This document shows positions 7,130 to 47,388 of a DNA stretch of 64,000 nt, piece by piece. The notes under the pieces are model-generated. The model did not search any database. It saw only the letters and a list, made by a program, of their open reading frames with translations, and was not told where the DNA came from. This DNA comes from an uncultured Paracoccaceae bacterium. GTDB lineage: Bacteria; Pseudomonadota; Alphaproteobacteria; Rhodobacterales; Rhodobacteraceae. The translations under genes and the position numbers were made by a program. The stretch is taken from positions 1 to 64,000 of the forward strand of contig CALAXT010000055.1 of assembly GCA_937895435.1 (NCBI GenBank), given 5' to 3'. Numbering within the stretch: the stretch's first letter is position 1; each line of letters opens with the position of its first letter.

Positions 7130-7227
7130 ACGCGACAGCTGGACGAGGCTTATCGCGCCCAACAAGGTCGCAATCAGCGCGCAACGCGCCGCTATCTGCC
7201 TTGACCGACGCAGGGGTTCCTGCGAGG

Positions 7228-7420
7228 GTGATTGAGTTAGGTGCCCTGAATGGGGGCTGAAACGGGAATGGGGTATTGCGGCAATGCGCGAAATCCCCAG
7301 CCGCCCCCGCGACTGAATGCGGAGAGCGCGCCACCAATATGCCACTGTCCGTTCTTGGGCGGGAAGGCGGTGATGCGCATCGACCCGCAAGCCAGGAGAC
7401 CGGCCTGACACGGAATGACC
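7228..7420 (+). promoter_or_regulatory. Cobalamin (B12) riboswitch
   Basis: The B12 box AAGCCAGGAGACCGGCCTG lies at 7389-7407. Upstream are other conserved elements in order: GGTGCCCTGAATGGGGGCTG, then GGGAATGGGGT, then GAAATCCCCAGCCGCCCCCG followed by CGACTG. Together they match the cobalamin aptamer core. A ribosome-binding AAGGAG (7443-7448) and the ATG of the CbiM-like gene follow, so the switch probably controls translation or transcription of that gene. Ends are approximate. A perfect inverted repeat CGCAGG/CCTGCG sits just upstream at 7209-7224. Confidence 0.92.
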
Positions 7421-7457
7421 ATGTGGCCGTCGGCGGGACGGCAAGGAGTGAACGAGA

Positions 7458-38136: not shown

Positions 38137-38969
38137 CCTGCCAAAACCGCTGCACGCGTCGCCTCATCAATCACGGGGCGTTGGCCAAACCACCGCTCAA
38201 AACCTGGGGCACCCTGATGCAGCAACATGCCCAAACCATCAACAACGGTGCACCCGCGTTCAGCCGCAGCCTGCAAAAATGGCGTCATTAAAGGTGTGTA
38301 GACCAGATCATTGACCACGGCATCAGGCGACAACCCATCAAGCGGCACGCGAAACTCTGATTTTCCAACCATACCAAGCGACGTGGTGTTGACAACCGTG
38401 GCCGCCCCAATCGGCAGTTCAGAGGCATGGCCCCAATCGTAAACCACAACCCGCGCCCCGAATGAGGCACGCAAAATTTCTGCCCTCTGCCTTGTACGAT
38501 TTGTCAGACGCACCTCTGGCACGCCCAATTCCAACAAAGACGCGATGACAGCCCGCGCCGCGCCGCCTGCACCAAACACCGCCGCTGGCCCCGATTCTGG
38601 CTGCCAATCAGGTGCATTTTGCCGCAAATTGGCCGTAAAGCCGTAACCATCGGTGTTGTCAGCGTGAATTTTGCCATCACTGCGAAAAATTAACGTGTTG
38701 GCAGACCCAATCAACGCCGCCCGATCTGTGACGACATCAGCAAGTTGCAGCACCGTTTCTTTGTGTGGCAATGTCACATTGACGCCCCGAAACCCCGCTT
38801 TGGGCAAAGCTTGCAAAACCTGTGGTAAATCCGCCTGCATCACATCCATAGGAATGTAATATCCGGGCAAACCCATCGTTCGCAGCCAATGACCATGAAG
38901 CAGGGGCGAACGACTGTGGGCAATGGGTGAACCGATAACGCCGGCCAGTGGTATTTTTTCAGCCGTCAT
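38133..38969 (-). CDS. aroE: Shikimate dehydrogenase
   Basis: 278 residues. NADPH-dependent reduction of 3-dehydroshikimate in aromatic amino acid synthesis. The substrate-binding part has GVIGSPIAHSRSPLLHGHWL near residue 10 and GVNVTLPHKETVLQLAD near 58 (catalytic Lys), plus SANTLIFRSDG and HADNTDGYGF. The NADP loop is AVFGAGGAARAVIASL near 128. It overlaps maf by four bases (ATGA). Confidence 0.95.
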   Translation of the reverse strand: MTAEKIPLAGVIGSPIAHSRSPLLHGHWLRTMGLPGYYIPMDVMQADLPQVLQALPKAGFRGVNVTLPHKETVLQLADVVTDRAALIGSANTLIFRSDGKIHADNTDGYGFTANLRQNAPDWQPESGPAAVFGAGGAARAVIASLLELGVPEVRLTNRTRQRAEILRASFGARVVVYDWGHASELPIGAATVVNTTSLGMVGKSEFRVPLDGLSPDAVVNDLVYTPLMTPFLQAAAERGCTVVDGLGMLLHQGAPGFERWFGQRPVIDEATRAAVLAG

Positions 38970-39559
38970 GTTTCGATCACCCCCCGCTGGGCAAGATAAG
39001 ACAAAAGCGGCAGCAGCGGCAAACCCAGAACAGCGAAATAATCACCCTTAACTGCCGAAAAAAGCCGCACGCCTTGGTGTTCAAGTTTATAGCACCCAAC
39101 CGCATCAGCGACGCCCGGCCAATTGTCAGACAAATACCTTTCTTGGGCTGCTTTCGACAACGCACGCATGGTCAACCGAACCGTTTCAATATGCCGCCAC
39201 ACAGGTTTCGCGTTTTCATAAACCACAACAGCCGAAATCAACATGTGGGTCTGGCCAGACAACGCCGCGATTTGGGCCCGTGCTTGATCAAGAGTGTCAC
39301 ATTTTTCAAAAATCTGACCTTTCAAATGCAGAATCTGATCACAGCCAATCACCATGGCATCTGGGTGTTTATCGGCAATCTTGCGCGCCTTGAATTCAGC
39401 CAAGGCATCCGCAATGTCACGCGGTGCCGCCTGTTCGGCCTCTAAACTGGCCCGAAGCGCCTGTTCATCTATCCGCGCTGGTATTTGTTCGAATGCAAGA
39501 CCGGCCCGGCGCAACAGATCACCCCGGATGGAAGAGGCTGAACCAAGAATAAGACGCAT
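38966..39559 (-). CDS. maf: Maf-family nucleoside triphosphate pyrophosphatase
   Basis: 197 residues. The Maf signature is at the N-terminus (RLILGSASSIRGDLLRRAG), followed by EFKARKIADKHPDAMVIGCDQ with the catalytic Asp, then FEKCDTLDQARAQIAALSGQ. It hydrolyses modified or canonical nucleotides to monophosphates. I chose the ATG at 39559; the longer frame reads into the origin region. A perfect DnaA box lies 11 bases upstream of the start, over the leader, so DnaA could affect the operon's expression. Confidence 0.92.
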   Translation of the reverse strand: MRLILGSASSIRGDLLRRAGLAFEQIPARIDEQALRASLEAEQAAPRDIADALAEFKARKIADKHPDAMVIGCDQILHLKGQIFEKCDTLDQARAQIAALSGQTHMLISAVVVYENAKPVWRHIETVRLTMRALSKAAQERYLSDNWPGVADAVGCYKLEHQGVRLFSAVKGDYFAVLGLPLLPLLSYLAQRGVIET

Positions 39560-39960
39560 GGGCAAACCCTGTGGATAAACCGGTGGCGTTCCCGGTGTGT
39601 TCAATGGCGAAACTGCCACCCTTTGAAAAAACCCCATCACTCACGCTGGATCAGGGTGGATTGGCGGCGGATTTTCCTGTGTGGATCAAACATCCCCAAA
39701 ACCAAATATCCTGCAAACCATGGGCGATTGAATGAAAAATATCAACAAACTTTGCGTTTCTGATATTTGGTCCAAACTACTGAATTTCTGTCTTTTTTCC
39801 TGACCAAAAAAAATTATGCACCGGTTGTGGATAAAGTTATGCGAACAAAACCGAAGATCAGCAACTGTGGGGATAACCGTTTAATCCACACTATCCACAG
39901 GGCTTACTACATCATCAATCTTTCTATATATTCTTATATATAAAGAAGAAGGCCCAACCT
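39560..39960. other. Predicted chromosomal replication origin (oriC)
   Basis: Non-coding region between divergent maf and hemJ. DnaA boxes: TGTGGATAA at 39570-39578 and 39826-39834 (perfect complements of TTATCCACA). Single-mismatch boxes are TGTGGATCA 39680-39688, TTATGCACC 39814-39822, TGGGGATAA 39868-39876, TAATCCACA 39882-39890 and CTATCCACA 39891-39899. Five of the seven cluster within 86 bases. An AT-rich tract follows directly. Gene order on both sides (maf-aroE-coaE-dnaQ; rho-mnmE-mnmG-rsmG-parAB) matches the origin environment of Caulobacter and relatives. Confidence 0.82.
39911..39950. other. AT-rich tract, likely DNA unwinding element
   Basis: 33 of 40 bases are A or T, including CTATATATTCTTATATATAA. 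It lies 11 bases past the last DnaA box and just before hemJ. In a GC-rich genome this is the expected place and composition for initial strand opening. Confidence 0.7.
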
Positions 39961-39977
39961 GCAGGAGCAACCGCCCA

Positions 39978-40421
39978 ATGTCTGATCTTTTGTCAACGCT
40001 CTATCCTTGGACAAAATCACTGCACATTCTTTCAGTGATTTCTTGGATGGCAGGGCTGTTTTATCTGCCACGCCTGTTTGTCTATCATGTCGAAGCAGGC
40101 AATCAGGCCATAAATCCTACCTTTGAAATTATGGAACGTCGTTTGTTGCGGGCCATCATGAACCCAGCAATGATTTCAACTTGGATCTTTGGCTTACTGC
40201 TTGTGATGACACCCGGCATTGTCGACTGGTCAATGATATGGCCTTGGGCCAAGACAATCAGCGTATTGCTCATGACATGGTTTCATATGTGGCTGTCAGC
40301 TCGGCGCAAAGGATTTGTGGCTGGCACAAACACACTGACGGGTCGGCAATATCGCATGATGAATGAAGTTCCGACTGTTTTGTTGGTAATCATTGTTTTG
40401 GCGGTTGTCGTGAAGTTCTAG
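39978..40421 (+). CDS. hemJ: Protoporphyrinogen oxidase HemJ
   Basis: 147 residues, four membrane helices. Oxygen-independent-type oxidation of protoporphyrinogen IX in heme synthesis. YPWTKSLHILSVISWMAGLF carries the conserved His and the following LPRLFVYHVEA, and MERRLLRAIMNPAMISTW the conserved Arg. KTISVLLMTWFHMWLSARRK is the third helix. Preceded by AGGAG (39963-39967). First gene to the right of the origin; in relatives hemE usually lies close by but is absent here. Confidence 0.92.
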   Translation: MSDLLSTLYPWTKSLHILSVISWMAGLFYLPRLFVYHVEAGNQAINPTFEIMERRLLRAIMNPAMISTWIFGLLLVMTPGIVDWSMIWPWAKTISVLLMTWFHMWLSARRKGFVAGTNTLTGRQYRMMNEVPTVLLVIIVLAVVVKF

Positions 40422-43145: not shown

Positions 43146-45020
43146 GTGTTTCACGTGAAACATTTTGACGTTGTGGTGGTTGGTGGTGGCCATGCTGGCG
43201 CAGAGGCCGCCCATGCGGCTGCCCGGCTTGGGGCAAGTGTGGCCCTTGTCACTCTGCGCCGTGACGGGATTGGTACCATGTCTTGTAACCCTGCGATTGG
43301 CGGTTTGGGTAAAGGCCATCTGGTGCGGGAAATTGACGCGCTGGATGGTGTTATGGGGCGCGTGGCTGATGCGGCTGGCATTCAATTTCGATTGTTGAAC
43401 CGGCGTAAAGGGCCAGCCGTTCAGGGCCCAAGGGCACAGGCTGACCGCAAACTTTATCGCGAAGCGATGCAGGCTGAAACCGCTGCCCGCCCCGGGCTGA
43501 GCGTGATTGAGGCAGAAGTTGCCGATTTGCAAATGCAAGCGGGTCGGGTGTGTGGCGTGGTGTTGGCTGATGGTGCCCAGATCAATGCTGGCGCGGTTGT
43601 TCTGACCTCGGGCACGTTTTTACGTGGGGTCATTCACATTGGTGAAGAACAGCGCCCCGGGGGTCGGATGGGTGATGCGCCATCGGTGCGTCTGGCAGAG
43701 CGGATGACCGCGCTTGGTCTGCCGTTGGGGCGGCTGAAAACGGGTACGCCCCCACGGCTGGATGGCCGCACGATTGATTGGGATCAGCTGGAAAAACAGC
43801 CAGGTGACGCCGATCCGGTCGTGTTCTCATTTTTGCACAAAGCACCATTGGTAAGGCAGATCTCATGTGGGATCACACATACCAACGAGGAAACGCACGA
43901 TATTATTCGGCGCAATCTGGGCCGGTCCGCGATGTATGGTGGCCATATTGAGGGCGTTGGCCCACGCTATTGTCCATCAATCGAAGATAAGGTTGTGCGT
44001 TTCGCCGATAAGGGCGCACATCAGATTTTTCTTGAACCCGAAGGGCTGGATGATTCGACAGTCTACCCCAATGGCATCTCGACCTCTTTGCCAGTTGATG
44101 TTCAAAACGACTACGTTCACTCGATGAAGGGGTTAGAGCGTGCGGTTATTTTGCAGCCGGGTTATGCCATCGAATATGATTATGTTGACCCCCAAGCCCT
44201 GCACCCGACGCTTGAGCTGAAATCGGTGCCGGGTCTGTTCTTGGCGGGACAGATAAATGGCACCACAGGCTATGAAGAGGCTGCCGCCCAGGGGTTGGTT
44301 GCAGGTTTGAACGCAGCGCGCCAATGCCGTGATGCCGCCCCGGTGATTTTCAGCCGATCAGAAAGCTATATCGGCGTTATGATTGATGATCTTGTGACGC
44401 GTGGCGTATCTGAGCCGTACCGGATGTTTACATCGCGGGCTGAATTCAGATTGTCGCTGCGTGCGGACAATGCCGATCAGCGTCTGACGCCGATGGGCTT
44501 GGCGCTTGGCTGCGTTGGGCCAGACCGAGAGCGAGCATTTGGCGAAAAGACTGCCGCGCTTGGTGGAGCGACAGTTGCGTTAAAGGCGCTGTCTTTCAGC
44601 CCAACCGAAATTGCGGCGTGTGGCATTCGAATTAACCAAGACGGCGTGCGCCGATCGGGGTTCGATCTGCTGGCCTTTCCTGATGTGACACCCGAACAGT
44701 TGGAGGCGTTGGCGCCGCAGCTTTTGGATATGGCGCCTGATATTCGTGCACAAATTGCGCGTGATGCGCTTTATGCCCCCTATCTTGAACGGCAAAACCA
44801 AGAGGTGCGCGCGATGAAGCGCGATGAGGCGCAGCACTTGCCCTCCGATTTCCCCTATGTCGGATTGCAGGGGCTTTCGAATGAATTGCAGGGCAAGCTG
44901 GCCCGTATTCGCCCTGCCACACTGGCGCAGGCTGCAAGGATTGACGGCATGACGCCAGCTGCGCTGACACTGATTTTGGCGCGGCTTAAAACAGGTGCTG
45001 CGCGGGCGCGGGCACAATGA
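43146..45020 (+). CDS. mnmG: tRNA uridine-5-carboxymethylaminomethyl modification enzyme MnmG
   Basis: 624 residues. FAD-binding partner of MnmE. The Rossmann motif is [20 protein letters not shown] near residue 7, followed by [20 protein letters not shown] near 45, [15 protein letters not shown] and [20 protein letters not shown]. The start is a GTG at 43146 giving [11 protein letters not shown], in which codons 1-6 are formed by the parS palindrome. An alternative start would lose part of the FAD motif. It overlaps rsmG by four bases. Confidence 0.96.
43147..43162. other. parS site 1 (ParB-binding palindrome)
   Basis: TGTTTCACGTGAAACA, a perfect 16-bp palindrome identical to the bacterial parS consensus. 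It lies about 3.2 kb right of the origin and forms the first codons of mnmG (FHVKH). The ParB that would bind it is encoded 3.3 kb downstream. Confidence 0.95.
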
Positions 45021-45631
45021 CACCGGCCAGTTTTTTTCCGAATGTTTCACGTGAAACATTGGTGCGACTTGAAGAATATGCAGCGCTATTGGCGAAATGG
45101 AACCCTGTAATCAATCTGGTGTCCAAATCTACCCTGCCTGATGTCTGGCAGCGGCATATGCGCGATTCGGCGCAATTGTGGCCTTTGTGCCCGAAGGGCG
45201 CGCGTTTATGGGTGGATATGGGCAGTGGTGGCGGATTTCCGGGCATTGTTATTGCGATCCTTGCTGCAGAATTAGCACCAGAAATGCGTGTTATTTTGAT
45301 TGAAAGTGATCAACGCAAGGCCACGTTTTTGCGCACAGTCGCGCAAACCTTGGGTCTTGAGCTACGGGTCGAAAGCCAGCGCGCAGAAGATGTGCCACCG
45401 CTCGGTGCTGATGTGGTGTCTGCACGCGCGCTGACAGCGTTGAGTGGTTTGCTGCCACTGGCCCAGCGGCACTTGGCCGAAAATGGTGTGGCGATCTTTC
45501 CAAAAGGCCAGTCGGCGGCTCAAGAACTGACAGACGCGCTTGAACTTTGGCAATTTGCGGTTACAAAAACCCCCAGTGAGACCGATCATCAGGCGGTCGT
45601 TCTTCAAATCAGGGATATTGCCCGTGCCTGA
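45017..45631 (+). CDS. rsmG: 16S rRNA (guanine-527-N7)-methyltransferase RsmG
   Basis: 204 residues. Methylates G527 of 16S rRNA. SAM-binding motif [20 protein letters not shown] near residue 65, with [20 protein letters not shown] before it and [17 protein letters not shown] near 130. ATG overlaps the mnmG stop. Residues 10-15 (VSRETL) are encoded by the second parS copy. It ends eight bases inside parA. Confidence 0.95.
45043..45058. other. parS site 2 (ParB-binding palindrome)
   Basis: TGTTTCACGTGAAACA, identical to site 1 and 1,896 bases to its right. It falls within codons 9-15 of rsmG. Flanking bases differ between the two sites, so only the palindrome itself is conserved. Confidence 0.95.
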
Positions 45632-46436
45632 GCTTCACACTGCAAGAATCATTGCGATTGCCAACCAAAAGGGGGGTGTGGGAAAGACCACAACCACCAT
45701 AAATTTGGCCGCAGCTTTAGCGGAACATGGCAAACGGGTTTTATTGATTGATCTCGATCCGCAGGGAAACGCGTCAACCGGGCTTGGTTTGGCTGCGCCA
45801 GATCGTACCCTGACCAGCTATGATCTGTTGGTTGAGGGCGCGGTGCTGGGCAGTGTTGCTGTGGCAAGCGAATTTCCTGGCATTTGGATCTGCCCGGCCA
45901 CCAGCGATCTGTCATCGGCAGAAATGGCCGTAATTGAAAACCCACGCCGCATGATGCTGCTGCGCGAAGCGTTGCGCGTGGGTGGCTATGCAGCACCGGC
46001 GTTTGATTATGTGCTGATTGATTGCCCACCGACGCTCGGTTTGTTGACGATCAACGCCCTGGTGGCCGCCGATTCAGTTTTGGTGCCCTTGCAAAGTGAA
46101 TTTTTTGCGTTGGAAGGTCTGTCCCAACTTGTGCTGACCGTGCGCGAGGTCCGCCAAACAGCAAACCCCGACCTTCGGTTTGAGGGGATCGTGCTGACAA
46201 TGTACGACGGTCGAAACCGTCTGTCGCAATTGGTAGAAGCAGATGCCCGCGAGACGTTGGGCGATTTGGTGTTTAAAACGATCATCCCGCGCAATGTTCG
46301 CCTAAGCGAAGCGCCATCATTTTCAAAACCTGTGTTGCAATATGACAGCGCATCACGGGGGGCAGCGGCGTATCGGGCCTTGGCGATAGAAATTCTGGCC
46401 TTGCAAGAAACCCGGAAAGGAACGGCAAATGGCTGA
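45624..46436 (+). CDS. parA: Chromosome-partitioning ATPase ParA
   Basis: 270 residues. Deviant Walker A ATPase that moves ParB-bound origins. IIAIANQKGGVGKTTTTINL near residue 10 has the signature Lys, VLLIDLDPQGNASTGLG near 40 is the A' region, and DYVLIDCPPTLGLLTINAL near 128 is Walker B. The start is a GTG at 45624 ([10 protein letters not shown]), overlapping rsmG by eight bases; a longer frame would lie within rsmG. It overlaps parB by eight bases. Confidence 0.95.
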   Translation: MPELHTARIIAIANQKGGVGKTTTTINLAAALAEHGKRVLLIDLDPQGNASTGLGLAAPDRTLTSYDLLVEGAVLGSVAVASEFPGIWICPATSDLSSAEMAVIENPRRMMLLREALRVGGYAAPAFDYVLIDCPPTLGLLTINALVAADSVLVPLQSEFFALEGLSQLVLTVREVRQTANPDLRFEGIVLTMYDGRNRLSQLVEADARETLGDLVFKTIIPRNVRLSEAPSFSKPVLQYDSASRGAAAYRALAIEILALQETRKGTANG

Positions 46437-47388
46437 TAAAAAAGATGCCCGGCGTGGTCTGGGCCGTGGTCTGGCCGCGCTTATGGCCGATATTCAAACT
46501 GATGGTGATTTGTCTGCCAGCCCCACAGCCACACCTGGTGGCCGTTTAGCATCACTTTCACCGCGCAGGCCTGACCAGATGCTGCCAATTGAAAAGTTGG
46601 TGCCCAACCCCGATCAGCCTCGCCGTGATTTCACGGAACCGGCGCTTTCAGAATTGGTGGAATCGATCCGTGAAAAGGGAATTATTCAACCCCTGATCGT
46701 GCGTGAAGTGGCACAAAAACCCGGCATGTATGAAATTGTCGCGGGTGAAAGGCGCTGGCGCGCGGCGCAACGTGCGCAATTGCACGAAGTGCCAGTGTTG
46801 GTGCGCAGCTTTACCGATTCTGAAGTGTTGGAAATTGCGATTGTTGAAAACATTCAGCGCGCCGATTTGAATGCCGCCGAAGAAGCGATGGCCTATCGCC
46901 AATTGATGGACCGGTTTGGCCATACACAAGAAAAACTGGCCGAGGCATTGGGCAAAAGCCGCAGTCACATTGCCAATCTGTTGCGGCTTTTGACCCTGCC
47001 CCAGCCTATTTTGGGGTGGTTGCGCGATGGGTCTTTGACGGCAGGTCACGCGCGCGCGCTGATCAACACGCCCGAACCTGTTGATATGGCGCGACAAGTT
47101 ATCAGCCGAAAACTTTCGGTGCGTGATACTGAGCGGCTTGCCGCCAGCGCACAATCGCGCCCCGATCGGCCCAAGGCTGATGCAGCAGCAAAATTCAAAA
47201 CAGGCCCAAAAGATGCCGATACACTGGCGCTTGAGGCTGATTTAGCAGCAAATATTGGCATGAAAGTGTCTATTGAGCATGAAACCGGCACCGAAGGTGG
47301 ACGGATCACTGTTCATTATGGTTCACTTGACCAGCTTGAGACGCTTTGTCAGATGCTCAGCTCTGGGTCTGGACGTTCTGGGTTTTAG
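46429..47388 (+). CDS. parB: Chromosome-partitioning protein ParB
   Basis: 319 residues. CTP-dependent DNA clamp loaded at parS. It starts with the ParA-activating basic motif MADKKDARRGLGRGLAALMA. Box I is PNPDQPRRDF, the CTP-binding box II is IVAGERRWRAAQRA near residue 102, and NIQRADLNAAEEAMAY follows. The helix-turn-helix is THTQEKLAEALGKSRSHIAN-like near 165 (here TQEKLAEALGKSRSHIANLL). The C-terminal dimerisation part ends LCQMLSSGSGRSGF. Its stop overlaps the hemW stop on the other strand. Confidence 0.96.
   Translation: MADKKDARRGLGRGLAALMADIQTDGDLSASPTATPGGRLASLSPRRPDQMLPIEKLVPNPDQPRRDFTEPALSELVESIREKGIIQPLIVREVAQKPGMYEIVAGERRWRAAQRAQLHEVPVLVRSFTDSEVLEIAIVENIQRADLNAAEEAMAYRQLMDRFGHTQEKLAEALGKSRSHIANLLRLLTLPQPILGWLRDGSLTAGHARALINTPEPVDMARQVISRKLSVRDTERLAASAQSRPDRPKADAAAKFKTGPKDADTLALEADLAANIGMKVSIEHETGTEGGRITVHYGSLDQLETLCQMLSSGSGRSGF

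Follow-up and report, generated by a model that had tools for sequence, protein, structure and literature searches.

The window analysed here, a stretch of 64,000 nucleotides, contains a non-coding gap of 418 bases (39560..39977) between maf (38966..39559, minus strand, start at 39559; Pfam PF02545, with a query that included the upstream extension to 39640) and hemJ (UPF0093; 39978..40421, plus strand, start at 39978; Pfam PF03653). To the left of the gap, Pfam matches on the minus strand correspond to Maf, shikimate dehydrogenase, CoaE and a DnaQ-like exonuclease, with SecB on the plus strand beyond the exonuclease. To the right, the plus strand encodes HemJ, Rho, MnmE, MnmG, RsmG, ParA and ParB, with the parA and parB frames spanning 45540..47388. 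These assignments confirm the divergence of genes on both sides that had been proposed in a preliminary description of this DNA, with the maf side on the minus strand and the hemJ side on the plus strand. The gap is 56% A+T compared with 43% for the whole window, and the genome, previously described simply as GC-rich, is better called moderately so, given the 57% G+C of the window.

Two perfect DnaA boxes had been reported in the gap, and both were recovered as TTATCCACA on the minus strand, one at 39570..39578, 10 bases upstream of the maf start and within a block conserved among relatives in a 97-row alignment, and the other at 39826..39834. The motif scan also detected four boxes with one mismatch each: TGATCCACA (39680..39688, minus strand), TTATCCCCA (39868..39876, minus strand) and the back-to-back boxes TAATCCACA and CTATCCACA on the plus strand (39882..39899, at 39882 and 39891). 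Five single-mismatch boxes had been claimed, and the fifth has two mismatches; likewise, four of the five boxes said to lie within 86 bases hold, the fifth probably being the weak box-like site TTATGCACC (39814..39822, plus strand, two mismatches), which was read by eye. When the gap was dinucleotide-shuffled 2,000 times, the number of boxes with at most one mismatch averaged 0.15 and reached a maximum of 3, with 0/2,000 shuffles attaining the six observed, and a Poisson estimate from genome density for six boxes in 330 bases is approximately 2e-11.

The box excess is local to the gap. The whole window holds 15 box matches against 9.1 expected, a number reached by 3 of 100 shuffles, and the entire genome (2.66 Mb) holds 402 boxes with at most one mismatch compared with 307 for the reversed motif, and 14 perfect boxes, two of them in the gap, compared with 8. 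Clustering across the genome was judged by close-pair searches, with individual box positions drawn from 100 of the 402 sites. The genome contains one same-strand ATCCACA pair within 0-30 bases, at 39884-39899 in the gap. A search for box cores arranged as close inverted pairs yielded a single genome site, on contig C44 and not in the gap, and equally many in the reversed control. Among the same 100 of 402 sites, one perfect and two single-mismatch boxes were seen within 313 bases on contig C7 (14186-14498, corresponding to 1471-1783 of locus L001), where 2 of 200 shuffles of the locus reached three boxes. This cluster was considered as a rival origin gap and rejected because it lies inside a long open frame, identified by eye as glycine dehydrogenase.

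Conservation of this arrangement was assessed at 109 hemJ loci, comprising a set of 29 (L011-L039) and the best 80 of at least 580 (L040-L119), of which 96 were aligned with the window to give the 97 rows. The 13 loci left out were L024, which has no box, L049, whose upstream sequence covers just 206 bases, and the lower-scoring L029-L039, of which L034 and L035 belong to the same family as the window. Three weaker or lower matches (G032, G036, G029) fell outside the locus set, and two loci, L012 and L084, do not differ over the stretch compared. The best named HemJ relatives among the matches listed mostly carry the label of Rhodobacteraceae or of one of its genera, and Aliiroseovarius heads them with 72% identity.

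Across the 96 aligned relatives, the 480-base stretches preceding hemJ contain 304 boxes with no more than one mismatch, compared with 2 for the reversed motif. At least one such box was found in 96/96 relatives, at least two in 90/96 and at least three in 70/96, and a perfect box precedes hemJ in 44/96. A divergent maf is present in 95/96, leaving a gap with a median length of 414 bases (351-1235), and rho lies on the hemJ strand in 96/96. Box conservation tracks the maf-hemJ layout: among the 12 left-out loci with full-length upstream sequence, the 700 bases before hemJ held no box in eight and 1, 2, 2 and 1 in the rest, and a search of the available locus sequence for maf next to hemJ came up empty for all 13. 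Within the same family, boxes precede hemJ in 17 of 24 genomes. The layout is absent from the remaining seven (three with hemJ but no box, three with weak matches only and one with none), and this was counted against reading the gap as the chromosomal origin of replication, oriC. In six of those seven genomes, the sequence upstream of the better maf match carries 5, 2, 1, 1, 1 and 0 boxes. In G023 (locus L020), which is among the 17 genomes with boxes, no maf was found beside hemJ, and only a distant Maf homologue is encoded elsewhere.

Adjoining the boxes on the hemJ side, a 40-base scan located the A+T-rich tract of the preliminary description, there given as 82% A+T, with its best position at 39911..39950 (82.5% A+T), which is likely to be the DNA unwinding element. 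Stretches of 40 bases with at least 82% A+T account for 4 of 63,960 positions in the window, and all four start within 39901-40000. Alignment of the relatives additionally revealed a short G+C-rich spacer followed by a conserved CTAC..CATCAT-type block (39900..39918, plus strand), a possible unwinding or single-strand binding motif. The order across the 97 rows is the maf-proximal box, a variable middle, boxes, the G+C-rich spacer, the CTAC..CATCAT block and the A+T-rich tract, and a side-by-side plus-strand box pair like that of the window was seen by eye in a number of the rows. The columns of the block rank with the best conserved in the gap, with CATCATC or CATCATT in 60/97 rows versus 3.1 in shuffles and C[T/A]AC in 83/97 rows versus 31 in shuffles, counts that are not independent because the rows are related. 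On the plus strand, pyrimidines make up 70% of the A+T tract on average over the 97 rows and 59% in the window.

The motif scan also detected two perfect copies of the parS sequence TGTTTCACGTGAAACA, one at the predicted start of mnmG (43147..43162) and the other 26 bases into the predicted rsmG frame (45043..45058). No further parS site occurs in the genome when up to one mismatch is allowed; the two lie 3.2 and 5.1 kb from the gap, and the reversed control yielded 0. Both parS and parAB are found close to the proposed origin. Each of the two sites, neither of which the preliminary description included, falls at the 5' end of a predicted coding gene.

In order to read the GC skew, for which the preliminary description had named a minimum close to the gap as supporting evidence, the genome itself and two relatives were considered. 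The genome consists of 81 contigs, and its own skew covers the contig that carries the gap (C55, 89,922 bases), where the cumulative skew is lowest in the bin that ends at 40,000. In the relative G003, a single contig of 3,558,757 bases taken as circular, a coarse series of 60 stretches of 18 kb gives mostly negative skew between 1.62 and 3.42 Mb and mostly positive skew on the way round from 3.48 Mb to 1.56 Mb. The cumulative sum is lowest in the stretch at 3.42 Mb and peaks in the one at 1.56 Mb, roughly opposite on a chromosome of 3.56 Mb. The fine series, which skips six gaps of 0.8-2 kb including one near the locus (3,478,001-3,480,000), is lowest across 3.4745-3.4925 Mb (-1799 at 3,474,500, -1640 at 3,486,500 and -1840 at 3,492,500), with hemJ at 3,477,014-3,477,457. 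The lowest bin and the gap are 15 kb apart and separated by a small rise, which was also counted against the oriC reading. A skew minimum was found at 40.0 kb on the contig itself and within about 15 kb of the locus in G003, and Pseudooceanicola spongiae (G041, CP045201.1) gave an ambiguous result with two fine minima, one of -3204 at 3,134,500 and one of about -2913 near 3,210,000, for a hemJ near 3,214,000.

One alternative explanation is that DnaA acts through the boxes on the promoters of maf and/or hemJ, with oriC located elsewhere, for example at dnaA. The boxes do sit near both gene starts. According to one survey, dnaA is conserved close to ori in Rhodobacterales (PMC8116508). In the genome studied here, dnaA is found on contig C38 and not on the contig of the gap; the skew of C38 rises through its first 40 kb, which says little alone because dnaA is only 6.7 kb from the contig end. 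The distance between dnaA and hemJ is approximately 82 to 215 kb in five relatives (G003, G013, G018, G041 and G042), and in G003, where dnaA lies at position 316 and only 82 kb from hemJ, coarse skew alone could not separate the two loci. The fine skew in G003 does separate them, with values of -1799 to -1840 near the gap compared with +237 to +346 at dnaA, well above the minimum. In P. spongiae, dnaA (at 3,048,425) lies on the falling limb of the skew, at neither minimum, so that this genome supports the locus over dnaA without singling the locus out. In addition, no DnaA boxes were found in the 3,483 bases around the dnaA gene of the genome studied here, and the parS sites lie near the maf-hemJ gap. 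A purely promoter-related role for the boxes, with the origin elsewhere, is consequently regarded as very unlikely.

The deepest skew minimum in P. spongiae, which lies about 79 kb to the left of the locus and was also counted against the oriC reading, raises the further possibility that the box cluster serves to titrate DnaA, with the true oriC lying some tens of kb away. The sawtooth skew of this genome would be accounted for equally well by a local inversion. Moreover, the A+T tract and the boxes are conserved together in the gap, and the skew minimum lies at the gap on its own contig and within 15 kb in G003, leaving titration as an explanation that we regard as exceedingly improbable, even more so than promoter control. 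The boxes, the A+T tract, their conservation, the skew minima on the contig and in G003, and the parS sites support the original proposal of an oriC between maf and hemJ, and we conclude that the gap (39560-39977) is almost certainly the chromosomal oriC of this Rhodobacteraceae species.

This assignment agrees with published descriptions of origins in the family. An oriC beside maf was stated from DoriC to be conserved in Rhodobacteraceae in a report on Ketogulonicigenium vulgare Hbe602 (PMC4793288), and the gap likewise adjoins maf; no difference from the Rhodobacteraceae oriC described there (Ori-Finder/DoriC) was found in a comparison based on the published descriptions. In another report, boxes and composition served to place oriC in 101 of 109 strains, and ties were settled by the skew minimum and parAB (PMC6699656), and the gap similarly combines DnaA boxes with proximity to a skew minimum and parAB. 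Since an oriC beside maf has already been stated for Rhodobacteraceae, the origin type and its address are already known, and the gap is one more, ordinary, well-supported member.

In the genome studied here, a search with PF01208, which we take to represent hemE, placed this gene on a different contig from the gap, and no gene matching PF03618, which we take to represent COG1806, was found in the genome. The Caulobacter gene order beyond hemE and COG1806 is presumably shared with the window as a wider gene set. The preliminary description had stated that the gene set of the window surrounds oriC in Caulobacter, which is true of the wider set only, because of these two missing neighbors; the direct flanks of Cori in Caulobacter crescentus are described as hemE and COG1806 (PMC1914354), unlike the maf and hemJ that flank the gap. 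Like Cori, the gap is non-coding, exceeds 400 bases and carries several DnaA boxes (five in Cori; PMC1914354). Whereas five CtrA sites are described in Cori (PMC1914354), no TTAA-N7-TTAA site was found in the gap at up to one mismatch. An exact CtrA site is present in 12/97 aligned rows. In Rhodobacterales, CtrA is not known to be essential for the regulation of replication. The gap also contains no GANTC sites and no exact IHF site, and three sequences in it that differ from an IHF consensus by one mismatch are candidate sites.

The arrangement also resembles the basal unwinding system (BUS) of Bacillus subtilis, in which tandem boxes likewise face a short G+C-rich spacer, a trinucleotide-like block and an A+T-rich tract (PMC8287927). 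The CTAC..CATCAT block shares its place and repeat length with the B. subtilis DnaA-trios and departs from the published rule (PMC8287927). Identification of the block as DnaA-trios was rejected, as the published pattern of at least three NAN trios with a spacer of 0-16 bases from a box does not occur in the window. Nor was the rule enriched in the relatives, where it was satisfied in 44/97 rows compared with a mean of 51.9 after shuffling of the downstream bases, a roughly matched control. The single paper listed in a search for DnaA-trio literature on Alphaproteobacteria concerns epsilonproteobacterial origins. A tentative and rather doubtful reading is that the block and the pyrimidine-rich A+T tract together form a motif, specific to this lineage, at which DnaA binds single strands, in effect a deviant DnaA-trio missed by the published rule. 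If this reading were true, the block would define how Rhodobacteraceae origins open, and a conserved block beside the boxes offers a concrete target for unwinding assays.

With the gap as oriC, initiation can be pictured as follows. DnaA would bind the box array in the gap, and the plus-strand box pair (39882-39899) would probably anchor a DnaA filament running rightwards over the block at 39900-39918. This filament would open the A+T-rich tract (39911-39950), where helicase could be loaded and from which forks would depart both ways, and ParB bound at the pair of parS sites, which lie 3-5 kb rightward of the gap, may help to segregate the new origins. Location of the origin fixes the replichores of this draft genome, and the accompanying alignment covers origins across the family. 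As the hemE and COG1806 flanks are absent here while the slot seems to be kept, origin prediction by these flanks alone, guides that are used elsewhere in alphaproteobacteria (PMC1914354), would be expected to miss this group.

Finally, one of the seven same-family genomes without the layout (G017, locus L249) has a HemE-like open frame, recognized by eye, between maf and hemJ. This frame suggests that the layout of the window may derive from a Caulobacter-like order that lost hemE (and COG1806), with G017 as a possible intermediate. Elsewhere in the window, a cobalamin riboswitch was detected at 7222-7422 (Rfam RF00174, 121 bits).
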